The notes under the pieces: generated by a model
The model's database searches: none
The model's input: the letters and a program-made list of their open reading frames with translations, nothing else
What the model was told of the DNA's origin: nothing
Part shown: one piece after another, positions 36,812 through 41,408 of the stretch
How the letters are laid out: each line of letters opens with the position of its first letter
How positions within the stretch are numbered: the stretch's first letter is position 1
Position numbers and translations under genes: made by a program
NCBI RefSeq assembly: GCF_900104815.1
Contig: NZ_FNTD01000004.1
Coordinates: 4,108,501-4,172,500, forward strand
Length of the DNA stretch: 64,000 nucleotides
Source of the DNA: Streptomyces misionensis
GTDB taxonomy: Bacteria; Actinomycetota; Actinomycetes; Streptomycetales; Streptomycetaceae
Direction: 5' to 3'

Positions 36812-39400
36812 TCAGCGTTTCGGATCGTGGAGTTTGCGGGCGGCTTCCTGCCGGGAGTGGACGCCGAGTTTCGCGAGTACCGCGCCCACGTGGTGCCCGG
36901 CGGTCTTGCGCGTGATGTAGAGGCGGGCGGCGATCTCGGCGTCCGACATGCCTTCGTGCAGCAGCTTGAGCACGTCCATCTCCCGGACGGTCAGCCCGTA
37001 CGGATTGGCCAGGGTGGCCGCCCGCGGGCCGCGCCGGATCGGGCGGACGCCGCGGGCACGCATCACGGCGCGGGTACGCGCCACGACCGGCCGGGCGCCG
37101 AGCGCCTCGAAGGCGGCCAGAGCCTGGTGCAGCGCCGGGGCGTCACCGGACAGCCGGACCAGCGCGGCCTGGTACGCGCAGCCGAGCCCGTCCCATTGCT
37201 CCGCCGCACCGGCCCAGTCGCCGGCCAGTTCCAGCGCGTAGGGTCCCGCTGCGGGAACCGGCCGGGGTGTTCCTCCGGCACGGCGGACCCAGCAGGCCAG
37301 GGGCCCGGACAGCCAGGGGTGGTCCCGCTCGGCCAGGGCGTCCAGACCGCGTTGCGCCTCCGTGCGCACCCGGTCGAGGTCGCCGCCCAGCCAGGCCGCC
37401 TCGACTCGGGCCTCCCACCCCAGGCCCGTGTCCAGCAGGCAGCCCGGGTCGACCGAGCCCGCCGCCTGCTCCAGCAGGGGCCATGCCCGGGCCTTGCCCT
37501 GGCGGGCCCGCACCAGGCCCAGGACGGTCAAGGCCAGGGCCCGGGCGACGGGTGGCGGGCCGGGGTGGCAGAGGACTCCCTGCGCGGTGTCGGCGGCCTG
37601 GGCCCACAAGCCCCGGGCCAGCAGTCCCCAGCTGCCCCAGGCCCTCGTGCACAGCAGGTAGGACAGCAGGTCGTGATCGAGGCAGTAGGCCTCCGCCCGG
37701 TTCACGGCCGCGGTGGTCCGGGCGGCATCGCGCCGGAGCGCGGCGAACCAGCACATGGCGAGCGCCAGGAAGCCCGCGTCCTCCGGCAGGTCCTGCGCCA
37801 TCGCGCTGGACATGGCAAGTTCGCATTCCTCCCAGCCGGAGCCGTTGCTCAGCATGTCCGCCGCCGCGGCATGGAAGCGGGCCTGGACGACCACTCCCGC
37901 GTCGCCGAAGCGCTCGCCCAGAGCGATCGCCTTCTCGGCGTACGCGGTGGTCACCCGCGTTTCCTCGTGCCGGTAGCAGGCGAGCTGACAGAGGTTCAGG
38001 TACGCCCGGGCCAGTTCCCGGCCGGGCCCCAGTCCTTCGAGCACCCGTACCGCCTCCAGGCCGGTCCGTCCGGCCTCCGCGGTCAGCCCGAGCGGCCACA
38101 GCCAGCAGGACAGCCGGCGCAGGTCCTCGCCCTCGCGCAGCCGGTCGCCCAGGGCGCGGCGCAGCTCCAACGCCGTACGGCGAGAGGCGATTCCCTCGTC
38201 CAGCCTGCCGGAGAGCCCACACGCGTGCGAATGGCCCTCCAGGAGGGAGGCCCTTCGGTCGAGCGGCAGGGGGTCGGCGTACCGCAGGGCGCGGGCGTAC
38301 TGGGCGGCCGCCTCCCGGTGCGCGCCCGATGCGGCGGCATGCGCGGCCGCGTCGGGCGCGTACTCCAACACGGCGGCCGGGTCCCCGGCGCCCTCGGCGT
38401 GATCGGCCAGCAGCGCCAGATCGTCCGCGGCGACCGGACCGGACCGCATCGCCGCCAGTACCTGCCGGTGCACCCGCAGACGGCAGGCGGCGGGGACGGA
38501 CTCCAGCACCGCCTGCCGGGTCAGCTCATGACGGAACTCGGCCACCTGTCCGTCGGTCCGTACGATCCCGCCGGCCACGGCGTCATCGAGCGCCGCCTCC
38601 GAGGCGGGCAGCAGGTCGGCCAGCAGCGCCAGCGGGACCCGGCGCCCCAGGACCGCCAGCACGTCGACGACTCCGCGCGCCGCGGCGGACAGCCCGGCCA
38701 GGCGGCCGGCGACGGCCTCGCGCACCGTTGCGGGGATGGGCTCCTCAGGGGAGTTCAGCATCGCGGTGACGATGAACGGGTTGCCGGCGGAGTCCTGGTG
38801 CAGCCGCTCGGCGTCGACGGTGTGTCCGCGGGCCAGCCGGGCCACGGCCCGACGGCTCAACGGGGCCAAGTCGTGGCGGTACACCCACGGGTACCCGGCC
38901 AGGGTGCCCAGGAGCGCGGTCACGGTGTGGGTGCGGCCTATCTCGTCGTCGCGGTAGGTGGCCACCACCAGCGCCGGAACGCCGGGCAGACGTCTGGCCA
39001 GATAGCGCAGCAGGTCCATGGTGGTCTCGTCCGCCCAGTGGACGTCCTCCACGACCAGCAGGCTGGGGTAGGAGGTCAGGTCGGCGAGCAGCGCGTCGAA
39101 CACCTCGTCGGGACGACAGGTGCCGACCAGCGCCCCGCTCAGGGCCGTCCGCACCGGCCGGCCCAGACGCGGGGCCAGGTCGGTCAGAGGGCCGAAGGGG
39201 CGGGGGGCGGACAGCGGGTCACAGGCGCCGACCAGTATCCGGATCCGGGGATCGGCGAGCTGGGCCAGGCGGTTGACGACGCTGGTCTTGCCGATGCCGG
39301 CCTCGCCGCGTACGAGTGCCAGTCGTCCAGGGCCGACCGCGGCCGCCCGGAGGTGACCGGTGAGGTCCTGTAGCACGGCCTCTCGCTCTAGCAGGTCCAT
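36812..39400 (-). CDS. LAL-type (large ATP-binding) LuxR family transcriptional regulator
   Basis: An 862-residue regulator. The N-terminal AAA-type ATPase has Walker A GEAGIGKTS (about residue 35) and Walker B LLVVEDVHWADE (about residue 118), followed by the typical YRDDE segment. A long helical TPR-like middle region (about 400-760) comes next. The C-terminal LuxR helix-turn-helix (about 795-855) reads LTVREMDVLKLLHEGMSDAEIAARLYITRKTAGHHVGAVLAKLGV in pieces. The ATG at 39400 starts the usual DLLERE. LAL proteins often control nearby clusters; the divergent polyasparagine gene and the downstream small secreted protein are candidate targets (inference). Confidence 0.92.
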   Translation of the reverse strand: MDLLEREAVLQDLTGHLRAAAVGPGRLALVRGEAGIGKTSVVNRLAQLADPRIRILVGACDPLSAPRPFGPLTDLAPRLGRPVRTALSGALVGTCRPDEVFDALLADLTSYPSLLVVEDVHWADETTMDLLRYLARRLPGVPALVVATYRDDEIGRTHTVTALLGTLAGYPWVYRHDLAPLSRRAVARLARGHTVDAERLHQDSAGNPFIVTAMLNSPEEPIPATVREAVAGRLAGLSAAARGVVDVLAVLGRRVPLALLADLLPASEAALDDAVAGGIVRTDGQVAEFRHELTRQAVLESVPAACRLRVHRQVLAAMRSGPVAADDLALLADHAEGAGDPAAVLEYAPDAAAHAAASGAHREAAAQYARALRYADPLPLDRRASLLEGHSHACGLSGRLDEGIASRRTALELRRALGDRLREGEDLRRLSCWLWPLGLTAEAGRTGLEAVRVLEGLGPGRELARAYLNLCQLACYRHEETRVTTAYAEKAIALGERFGDAGVVVQARFHAAAADMLSNGSGWEECELAMSSAMAQDLPEDAGFLALAMCWFAALRRDAARTTAAVNRAEAYCLDHDLLSYLLCTRAWGSWGLLARGLWAQAADTAQGVLCHPGPPPVARALALTVLGLVRARQGKARAWPLLEQAAGSVDPGCLLDTGLGWEARVEAAWLGGDLDRVRTEAQRGLDALAERDHPWLSGPLACWVRRAGGTPRPVPAAGPYALELAGDWAGAAEQWDGLGCAYQAALVRLSGDAPALHQALAAFEALGARPVVARTRAVMRARGVRPIRRGPRAATLANPYGLTVREMDVLKLLHEGMSDAEIAARLYITRKTAGHHVGAVLAKLGVHSRQEAARKLHDPKR

Positions 39401-39605
39401 CACCACTCATTTTCTCTCCGCGACCGGAGCCGCGCAAAAGATCCAAGCGGATCAAGACGGCTCGACAGGTGGGGTGATGCGGGGAATCCGGACTGGCACG
39501 TGGGGTGTGCCGGGGCGGAACTTGGGGTGCCCGCCCGATGTGTCCCCGACCGCGGCGGATGCATGCTGGCGGAAAGCGCACGCCTTGGTGTTCCGGTTGC
39601 CAATT

Positions 39606-39619
39606 CCCGAGATTTCGGC
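39606..39619. promoter_or_regulatory. dyad upstream of the first polyasparagine gene
   Basis: CCCGAGATTTCGGC contains the perfect inverted arms CCGA and TCGG around GATT, 56 bases before the ATG at 39675. Nearly the same sequence occurs upstream of the second polyasparagine gene at 40814-40826. Confidence 0.4.
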
Positions 39620-39674
39620 GGCTGGTTGCGGGCGAATCGGTGCGACTATCCGGACTCATCGAAAAGAGATCGTG

Positions 39675-40253
39675 ATGCTCAAGAAGGTTGCAAAGCGTAC
39701 GGCGGTGCTGACCGCATCGGCCGCTCTGGCAGCAGGGGGCGCCCTGGTCCCCTCCACCGCGTTCGCGGCTCCGACGCCGACAGTCGCTCACGTGACGACG
39801 CCGAATGACAACGGCGGCGGAAACAACAACAACAATAACAACAACAACGGCCGGGGCAGGCACCACCACAACAACAACAATAACAACAACAACAACAACG
39901 GTCGGGGCGGGAACAACAACAACAACAATAACAACAACGGTCGGGGTGGGAACAACAACAACAACAATAACAACAACGGTCGAGGTGGGAACAACAACAA
40001 TAACAACAACAATAACGGCGGGCGGGGTGGCAACAACAACAATAACAACAACAACAACGGCGGAGGCGGGAACAACAACAATAACAACAACAACAACGGC
40101 CGGGGCGGGAACAACAACAACAATAACAACAACAACGGCGGAGGCGGAAACAACAACAATAACAACAACAACAACGGTGGGGGCGGGAACAACAACAATA
40201 ACAACAACAATGGTGGGGGCGGCAACAACAACAATAACAACAACAACGGCTGA
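39675..40253 (+). CDS. secreted polyasparagine repeat protein
   Basis: A 192-residue protein. Residues 1-32 are a Sec signal (MLKKVAKRTAVLTASAALAAGG, cleavage after AFA). After a linker of about 17 residues the rest is low complexity: eleven runs of 8-10 asparagines separated by GRGG, GGGG, GGRGG or GRGRHHH. By count about 98 of 192 residues are asparagine. The Asn frame is chosen because only it carries the start codon, ribosome site (AAAGAG) and signal peptide. Function is unknown; poly-Asn tracts are prone to beta aggregation, so a surface or matrix amyloid is possible. It is divergent from the LAL gene and converges on a second Asn-rich gene. Confidence 0.8.
   Translation: MLKKVAKRTAVLTASAALAAGGALVPSTAFAAPTPTVAHVTTPNDNGGGNNNNNNNNNGRGRHHHNNNNNNNNNNGRGGNNNNNNNNNGRGGNNNNNNNNNGRGGNNNNNNNNNGGRGGNNNNNNNNNGGGGNNNNNNNNNGRGGNNNNNNNNNGGGGNNNNNNNNNGGGGNNNNNNNNGGGGNNNNNNNNG
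39822..40247 (+). repeat. tandem repeat encoding Asn(8-10)-Gly/Arg units
   Basis: Eleven poly-Asn blocks with a basic period of 39 bp (four spacer codons plus nine Asn codons); variants of 36 and 42 bp occur. Within blocks AAC dominates with usually one AAT whose place is shared between blocks (five AAC, AAT, three AAC; or three AAC, AAT, five AAC). This indicates duplication of whole units rather than slippage of single codons only. Confidence 0.9.
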
Positions 40254-40260
40254 ACTTCAC

Positions 40261-40299
40261 AGCCCGGCGGCCGATGGAAGTCCACTCGGTCGCCGGGCT
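40261..40299. terminator. bidirectional terminator between the two Asn-rich genes
   Basis: AGCCCGGCG at 40261-40269 pairs with CGCCGGGCT at 40291-40299, and CCGA/TCGG extends the stem inside after a one-base mismatch. It starts seven bases after the first gene and serves both convergent genes. Confidence 0.8.
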
Positions 40300-40352
40300 G
40301 TTCCGTGTCGACGCTGCTGAAGAGGCTTCAGCTCCCTATCGGGATCGGCGTC

Positions 40353-40787
40353 TCAGCTCTGGTGGCAGTTGATGTTCTGGTTTCCGGTGAAGGTGTTGCC
40401 CGATCCGACCTGCCCCTTCGGGTAGCAGACCTGGAAGTTGAAGAGGGACTTGCCCAGGAGCGGGAGGAGCCCCGTCACGTTTCCCTGGGTCTGGCTGTCG
40501 CCGTTGTTGTTGTTATTGTTGTTGTTCGTGCCACCCCCGTTGTTGTTATTGTTGTTGTTCGGGCCGCCTGCGTTGTTGTTGTTATTGTTGTTGTTGGTGG
40601 TCTGGGTTCCGGTGGGGGTGTCGCCCTGGCCGGTCGACCCCATCGTGTAGGGCATTCGCAGGAGCGGAATGCTGTCCAGAACCGAGAGGAGACCCCCGTC
40701 GCTTTGGGCCTGGGCGCCGGCGGCGCTGAAGAGAATTGCCGCGGTGGCAGCGGCGCTGATCGTGGCAAAACGCTTGGCGAGCTTCAC
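40353..40787 (-). CDS. secreted Asn-rich protein with C-terminal two-cysteine domain
   Basis: A 144-residue protein. A Sec signal (MKLAKRFATISAAATAAILF, cleavage after AQA) is followed by a hydrophobic segment (GGLLSVLDSIPLLRMPY), three polyasparagine runs (8, 7 and 8 residues) separated by AGGP and GGGT, and a C-terminal domain LLPLLGKSLFNFQVCYPKG...NQNINCHQS with two cysteines 20 residues apart. The C-terminal spacing recalls chaplins but the sequence is not a chaplin. GTG start at 40787 with AAAGG upstream. It converges on the larger polyasparagine gene and shares its upstream dyad, so the two are probably used together on the cell surface (inference). Confidence 0.78.
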   Translation of the reverse strand: MKLAKRFATISAAATAAILFSAAGAQAQSDGGLLSVLDSIPLLRMPYTMGSTGQGDTPTGTQTTNNNNNNNNAGGPNNNNNNNGGGTNNNNNNNNGDSQTQGNVTGLLPLLGKSLFNFQVCYPKGQVGSGNTFTGNQNINCHQS

Positions 40788-40813
40788 TCGGCCGACCTTT
40801 CCTCGTCTCTGGT

Positions 40814-40826
40814 GCCGAATCTCGGG
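40814..40826. promoter_or_regulatory. dyad upstream of the second Asn-rich gene
   Basis: On the minus strand CCCGAGATTCGGC holds the arms CCGA and TCGG around GAT, 27 bases before the GTG start. It matches the site at 39606-39619 except for one T. Confidence 0.4.
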
Positions 40827-40991
40827 CTTTAGTGGTCAGGATGACGAACCGCGGGCGCCGAACGATTACCAGGCACGCTGCGGCGCCCGCGTTTTCCCCC
40901 GTACAGCCCCAGAATTCCTGCTCGGTCCTCGTGGCGCGGCTGAGTACCGCTCCTCATGGCGCCCGTTCGCCCGTTCGGGGAAACTGGCGGC

Positions 40992-41408
40992 ATGGATCTG
41001 CCCGTCGCCCCGCCGGCCTTCGACGCGACCACCGGTCCGGGGGCACACCGCCGTGCCGACCTCGGTGCCGACATCGGGGTCGGCTGCGCGCTGCTGCTCC
41101 TGGAGCTGATCGCCCTGGCGGGGATCTTCTGGCTCTGGTTCCTGACCGGGTTCGACCTCGACCCGGCCGAGACCGCCACCGCCGCCCCGCTGTGGCCCTA
41201 CCTTGCGGCCGTCGGCGGGGTCGGCGTGCTCGCCGTCGTGGCGACCGCGATCGCCGCGCGGGCGGGGGCCCTCGTCACCGTGGTCACCCAGGCGGTCGTG
41301 GTCGTGCTGACCGCGGTCGTCGTGTTCGGCGGCGCCACGGCGCAGTCCCACCAGGACCGGCTGTGCCGTGACACGCCCTCGGCCGCCGGCTGCCGGGACG
41401 ACCGTTAG
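40992..41408 (+). CDS. small integral membrane protein
   Basis: A 138-residue protein with three hydrophobic helices (about residues 27-53, 66-90 and 92-115) and a C-terminal tail with two cysteines (DRLCRDTPSAAGCRDD) that probably faces outside. The N-terminal 25 residues are polar (MDLPVAPPAFDATTG). An upstream in-frame start 12 codons earlier is possible, but the ATG at 40992 matches the protein type I recall from other streptomycetes. No function is known. It stands alone between the Asn-rich gene and a convergent transporter gene. Confidence 0.7.
   Translation: MDLPVAPPAFDATTGPGAHRRADLGADIGVGCALLLLELIALAGIFWLWFLTGFDLDPAETATAAPLWPYLAAVGGVGVLAVVATAIAARAGALVTVVTQAVVVVLTAVVVFGGATAQSHQDRLCRDTPSAAGCRDDR

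Follow-up and report, generated by a model that had tools for sequence, protein, structure and literature searches.

A candidate extracellular polyasparagine module with a linked LAL-type regulator in Streptomyces

Why a high-GC bacterium should export proteins built largely from runs of asparagine is the question raised by two small facing genes of Streptomyces misionensis, here called A and B. They lie in the window, by which we mean the whole 64-kb stretch of DNA that was analysed. The sequence-only reading that preceded this work had proposed a paired extracellular system with export signals, a shared terminator, and a shared upstream motif, located next to a LAL regulator. Comparison with other strains (L numbers denote loci and G numbers genomes) leads to a somewhat different unit, whose features in the window are as follows.

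36812..39406, minus strand: LAL-type regulator divergent from A and third member of the module (864 aa; AAA_16 and GerE/LuxR domains)
39470..39529, plus strand: three TGGGGTG direct repeats starting at 39470, 39501, and 39523, candidate LAL operator
39675..40253, plus strand: gene A, predicted exported polyasparagine protein (192 aa, 11 Asn runs; 13 copies compared)
39822..40247, plus strand: poly-Asn region of A, with an AAT codon in each run
40259..40301, no strand assigned: hairpin between the facing stop codons, probable two-way terminator without a T run (from folding)
40353..40787, minus strand: gene B, predicted exported protein with three Asn runs and a two-cysteine C-terminal domain (144 aa)
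40356..40481, minus strand: C-terminal domain of B, C.P.GQ...GN.F.G.QNINC (from alignments and profile search)
40590..40700, minus strand: apparent worn N-terminal copy of the domain in mature B (second profile match, E 4.1e-7; alignment)
40893..40908, minus strand: conserved box upstream of B, GGCTGTACGGGGGAAA (present in 11 of 11 B loci)

Gene A begins with an ATG at position 39675, and its stop codon ends at 40253. The product is 52% asparagine, arranged in 11 runs that are each 8-10 residues long, which agrees with the original description of a secreted chain that is about half asparagine. When read by eye, the N terminus is a Sec-type signal of 31 amino acids followed by a short linker. 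The runs are separated by spacers such as GRGG, GGGG, and the like, including one GRGRHHH, and the protein ends in NNNNNNNNG. Mature A consists of nearly nothing other than asparagine, glycine, arginine, alanine, and histidine, and hydrophobic residues are scarce. The GC content over the gene is 0.51 versus roughly 0.70-0.79 for adjacent genes. Across the 13 copies, the number of runs is variable (6 in L044, 11 in the window, and 13 in L058 of genome G117), run length is 8-10 in 121 of 125 runs, and 92 of 112 spacers have four residues. Twelve of the 13 copies preserve the reading frame, which speaks against the concern, voiced with the first description, that it might be disrupted in relatives. 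The remaining copy, L055:8095-8628 from a draft genome of S. flaveolus NRRL B-1589, has its Asn frame shifted past the fourth run. The GRGRHHH segment at 39850-39872 is the one His/basic spacer among the A runs of the window; a comparable spacer occurs in 7 of 13 A copies and is absent from L052-L055, and two further copies carry basic stretches ahead of the first run.

Gene B extends from a GTG start codon at 40787 to 40353. Its product likewise carries a Sec-type signal by eye, ending in AQA, so the proposed export signals are found on both proteins by inspection of their sequences, and A and B are read as exported on this basis. The three Asn runs of B are 8, 7, and 8 residues long, and the predicted C-terminal domain holds two cysteines as had been proposed. 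Across B copies, runs contain 6-11 Asn, and 13 of 16 spacers are four residues. Six C-terminal stretches align to C.P.GQ...GN.F.G.QNINC, and both cysteines are kept in 13 aligned stretches of the domain, which is probably closed by a disulfide. The mature N terminus looks like a worn copy of the same domain, such that B would be internally duplicated with the Asn runs between the two copies.

Neither A nor B has a meaningful match in Pfam, NCBIfam, or PHROGs, weak library rows such as Vir1p at 0.057 and Wzz at 0.36 falling far under curated cut-offs. The B domain has no match among PDB sequences, and a plasmid search returned one record with a 25-residue match to it. AlphaFold models were not usable (mean pLDDT 41.9 and 55.8) and gave no confident fold for B. 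A profile of the B domain matches 11 of 392 Streptomyces genomes at E<=0.01, one of them (G189, 0.007) being doubtful; this borderline match was dropped, as its locus L062 lacks a recognisable domain. The scan of named genomes yielded 12 loci, 11 from Streptomyces and one from Actinacidiphila, although some B-domain loci may belong to one strain counted under two labels. The domain also occurs without poly-Asn in nine other loci (L025, L028, L034, L037, L038, L047, L049, L050, and L051), and in L038 and L050 it lies in long overlapping frames that leave protein limits and signals unsure. Three of these nine proteins were scanned against Pfam and gave no match. Eight of the nine, all but L050, bear a downstream motif like CP.GK..TGGG. 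This family (L025, L028, L034, L037, L038, L047, L049, and L051) has one member from Actinacidiphila.

The asparagine runs of A and B are not a product of chance. Six consecutive AAY codons occur only inside these two genes in the 8.47 Mb genome, where they give 51 overlapping matches. Eight consecutive AAY codons are found in 9 of 392 Streptomyces genomes, namely seven with a canonical A, G250, and G191. The G191 match was dropped because its translation resembles a fungal mitochondrial contaminant; by eye, this locus (L061, G191:C34:10500-14500) encodes a mitochondrial protein like ATP synthase subunit a together with AAT repeats. In a sample of 296 genomes from the phylum, of which nine (our own among them) are Streptomyces, eight successive AAY codons occur in our own genome and in 4 of 287 genomes outside Streptomyces. 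In three of these four genomes the match is one run in an unrelated protein, and the fourth gave no such reading frame. The Asn run of G507, which belongs to another genus, is twelve pure AAC codons.

The A and B pair is not an accident of one strain, as 11 Streptomyces strains carry both by sequence comparison. A poly-Asn B gene is present in the window and in L044, L045, L046, L048, L052, L053, L054, L055, L056, and L057, and A accompanies all 11, either adjacent or one gene off. Locus L045 comes from S. griseofuscus DSM 40191. Three of these loci also appear under genome labels (L048 is G077, L053 is G111, and L055 is G020), and each was counted once. The possibility that homologues of the two never occur together, which had been named as fatal to the idea, is thus not borne out. 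Two gene orders are observed. In the first, LAL-A faces B (the window, L044, L045, L046, L048, and L057, as well as L058 with a scar of B); in the second, the order is B-LAL-A (L052-L056). Flanking genes are not alike between locus groups, and a LAL tree requires a single change for each grouped context, the group of the window alone being strongly supported.

Gene A occurs without B in G117 (L058) and in G250 (L060). At L058:6660-7005, beside an intact A of 13 runs, the scar of B consists of a remnant of its start plus its nine final codons (NQNLNCHQT). Because the B site of G117 is reduced to these pieces, B was deleted and A kept. In L060, A is diverged, and 14 kb of this locus contain no B and no LAL. 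Together, these two cases suggest that B is not strictly required.

The third member of the unit is the regulator. Its 864 residues include AAA_16 at residues 5-147 (1.5e-18) and GerE/LuxR at residues 805-857 (1.3e-13), which is the arrangement of the LAL class: proteins of about 900 aa with an AAA-type ATPase at the N terminus and a LuxR HTH at the C terminus. The same LAL gene is divergent from A in 12 of 13 A loci and always accompanies A in the 11 strains with both genes, so a neighbour that the sequence-only reading had mentioned is now counted as part of the module. Its central 434 aa are single-copy in this genome at E<=1e-5. When four candidates were scored in each of the 392 genomes, at least 76% identity to this region was seen only in G000, G020, G077, G111, G117, G255, and G372. 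These seven are exactly the genomes with a canonical A, one of which (G117) is without B; the naive chance of the same seven genomes for LAL and A is 4e-15, a figure that ignores kinship. The next matches are G006 at 48%, with no recognisable A or B alongside within the part read, followed by 13 genomes at 33-37%. A search of 296 relatives from 72 genera gave five matches at E<=1e-100, all of them Streptomyces already counted. On this comparative evidence, the unit is LAL, A, and B together. The earlier notion of a paired system holds in that A and B co-occur; it is qualified by the inclusion of LAL, by the B domain in proteins free of poly-Asn, and by the survival of A after loss of B in G117.

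The spacer between LAL and A contains three TGGGGTG copies, 31 and 22 bp apart, among only six in the whole 64 kb. Of the 12 LAL-linked loci, 10 have copies of TGGGGTG or TGGGGCG at a spacing of 21-22 bp and the other two, L048 and L054, a single copy each; a further copy lies 31-32 bp off in four loci. L060, which lacks LAL, has none. Three TGGGGTG copies arose in 0 of 2000 spacer shuffles, and some heptamer was tripled in 116 of 2000; the argument for TGGGGTG therefore rests on its conservation, which makes these repeats a likely LAL site.

All 11 B loci carry GGCTGTACGGGGGAAA upstream of B with no more than one substitution, and the copy in the window is the sole perfect one in this genome. 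This box was considered as a site common to A and rejected, since a matrix of the 11 boxes gave no convincing site in front of A (L044 scored best, with 0.013 expected hits, and the remaining twelve ranged from 0.08 to 1.6). The proposed shared motif is present in the window (39606 on the plus strand and 40826 on the minus strand) but is not conserved in relatives: with two mismatches allowed, CCCGAGATT(T)CGG lies upstream of 4 of the 13 A copies and 5 of the 11 B copies, and it was dropped. Rather, A and B each have a different conserved upstream box, and without a common one, control of B by LAL is unsupported. A sigma-70 scan gave no match, nor did Rfam at gathering scores in 39300-41100. 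As for the shared terminator, a strong hairpin at 40259-40301 (-38.7 kcal/mol, z -6.9) separates the stops, and inverted repeats lie downstream of A in relatives. However, the hairpin has no T run and was not reported by a simple terminator scan, and its role as a terminator is accordingly likely rather than demonstrated.

The codons of the runs follow a pattern of their own. Asparagine in six other genes of the window is encoded by 54 AAC versus 1 AAT. Among runs of six or more Asn, each of the 125 in A and the 27 in B (152 in total) contains at least one AAT, and run positions 4 and 5 account for 113 of the 164 AAT codons in A and for 27 of the 48 in B. In 5000 codon shuffles of A, an average of 30 runs and never fewer than 19 were left without AAT. 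The average for B was 3.6 and zero was reached, so this measure alone says little for B; the mean longest pure AAC stretch of B is 3.4, under every shuffle (minimum 3.8). As the runs are related by duplication, none of these shuffle figures is a clean probability. Two readings remain, namely a founder unit with AAT that was copied throughout, or selection against the slippage of pure AAC. Genome G117 has a second, unrelated, exported-looking poly-Asn gene at L059:4787-5452, with DRSEARDEAED repeats and IIVVVNNNNNNNN, and both of its runs hold a central AAT as in A and B. The diverged A of L060 has IIVVINNNNNNN, which is similar to IIVVVNNNNNNNN.

Pairwise comparison shows that the A N terminus, B, and LAL are under purifying selection. 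Values of dN/dS are about 0.04-0.21 for the A N terminus (seven pairs, of only 48-49 codons each), 0.16-0.24 for B (six pairs), and 0.24-0.34 for LAL (seven pairs), and thus do not exceed about 0.34 in any pair. Divergence of the three genes is broadly parallel, with a lower dS for LAL.

The explanation that we favour, tentatively and at somewhat less than an even chance, is that A forms an extracellular polyasparagine polymer under LAL control for which B acts as nucleator or anchor. LAL would bind the spaced TGGGGTG repeats and switch A on. Exported A would be the bulk polymer, whose strands, each some nine Asn long and linked by Gly-rich turns mostly of four, might stack through ladders of Asn side chains in a cross-beta assembly. 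B would be exported as a minor partner whose three runs, of like length and spacing, template or cap A, and its two-cysteine domain may anchor or start assembly at the cell surface; this division of labour between polymer and partner is conjectural. In its favour are the co-occurrence of A and B in 11 strains in two orders and always with LAL, the restriction of the LAL orthologue to the seven canonical-A genomes, dN well below dS in all three genes, the regular runs and four-residue spacers of both proteins, and the direct repeats between LAL and A. Linkage and selection are established by sequence comparison, whereas export is read by eye. Published work on amyloid also fits: the available text of PMC10624427 reports that poly-Asn forms amyloid with a large nucleation barrier, and that a template in cells brought about nucleation of N-rich sequences that failed to nucleate on their own. 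Against this explanation, A is kept without B in G117 and G250, the module is rare (seven of 392 Streptomyces genomes), and Gly and Arg in the spacers are not amyloid-favouring by themselves. A more elaborate version, in which a secreted, LAL-controlled polymer is built of Asn9-Gly4-type units, the high nucleation barrier of poly-Asn confines the material to places where B sits, and a synonymous AAT in each AAC run guards against slippage, is rather unlikely in full.

Nearly as likely as the polymer with its nucleator is a close rival in which A makes a non-amyloid coat that holds water or protects, a hydrated and disordered Gly/Asn brush or gel, and B attaches it to the wall. The composition of mature A with its few hydrophobic residues and the lack of a confident fold for B suit such a coat, which draws equally on the linkage evidence, but a mere coat needs neither the narrow range of run lengths nor the exclusion of other polar residues. 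It is improbable, though by no means negligible, that A is instead an ecological effector (a surface decoy, adhesin, or metal-binding chain) with B as a binding protein. The His/basic segments of many A copies and the B domain of other exported proteins would accord with this role, but the four A copies in L052-L055 have no such segment, and no partner or target is known. LAL proteins often control secondary metabolism, which would suit A and B as precursors of modified peptides; this is very unlikely given a Sec-type signal rather than a leader peptide and the absence of a modification gene recurring across the neighbourhoods. The least probable reading takes the Asn runs for a DNA minisatellite without protein function. 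Run number does change fast, and the draft copy in L055 is frame-shifted, but the frame is kept elsewhere, every Asn codon of the A runs is either AAC or AAT and no break by a single other residue was found in them, dN is below dS in the flanking coding parts, and the gene is linked to LAL.

Returning to the polymer and its partner, several known systems offer comparisons. Chaplins and rodlins are, like A and B, small exported Streptomyces proteins. They are genus-wide, whereas the A/B module is present in about 2% of the sampled Streptomyces, and A and B differ further in their poly-Asn runs, a dedicated LAL, and the lack of a Pfam or NCBIfam match. Pfam holds a chaplin model, and no chaplin-named family matched A or B at E<=1. 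With regard to rodlins, the search covered the Pfam and NCBIfam libraries as they stand, in which A and B matched no family. The two rodlins are unequal partners, as amyloid forms readily from RdlB but not from RdlA according to the available text of PMC5314377. The module resembles exported Streptomyces surface proteins in kind, judging from its sequences, and matches no known family. Curli CsgA and CsgB pair a repeat polymer with a partner that has a smaller number of related repeats and a C terminus of its own, a layout that A and B may share. No homology to curli is expected, and no secretion channel or chaperone gene is seen beside A and B. The runs of A and B are themselves alike in length, in mostly four-residue Gly-rich spacers, and in AAC/AAT pattern, although low complexity bars a claim of homology. 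The regulator is similar to MalT and other LAL proteins in its AAA ATPase N terminus, its LuxR-type HTH C terminus, its size of about 860 aa, and, as for MalT, direct repeats as candidate operator; it differs in having structural-looking exported proteins rather than a pathway as neighbours.

Homopolymeric Asn tracts have been tied to aggregation in yeast Azf1p and other proteins and in the proteomes of Plasmodium and Dictyostelium, as far as the available texts of PMC8139511, PMC11132505, and PMC10624427 go. Those eukaryotic proteins are intracellular, whereas A and B are predicted to be exported, with short regular runs and Gly-rich spacers, from a high-GC bacterium. The literature searched, which covered few of the subscription journals, yielded no account of a poly-Asn system secreted by bacteria. 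The module probably makes an extracellular material, and because its three genes lie within about 4 kb, the idea is directly testable. Most work on natural poly-Asn has concerned eukaryotes, in which it is linked to prions and aggregation. If the explanation proves true, a bacterium that exports poly-Asn with its own regulator and partner would provide a compact natural test of such sequences outside cells, and would offer a material of very regular repeat unit in which a synonymous interruption of the repeat is kept across species.
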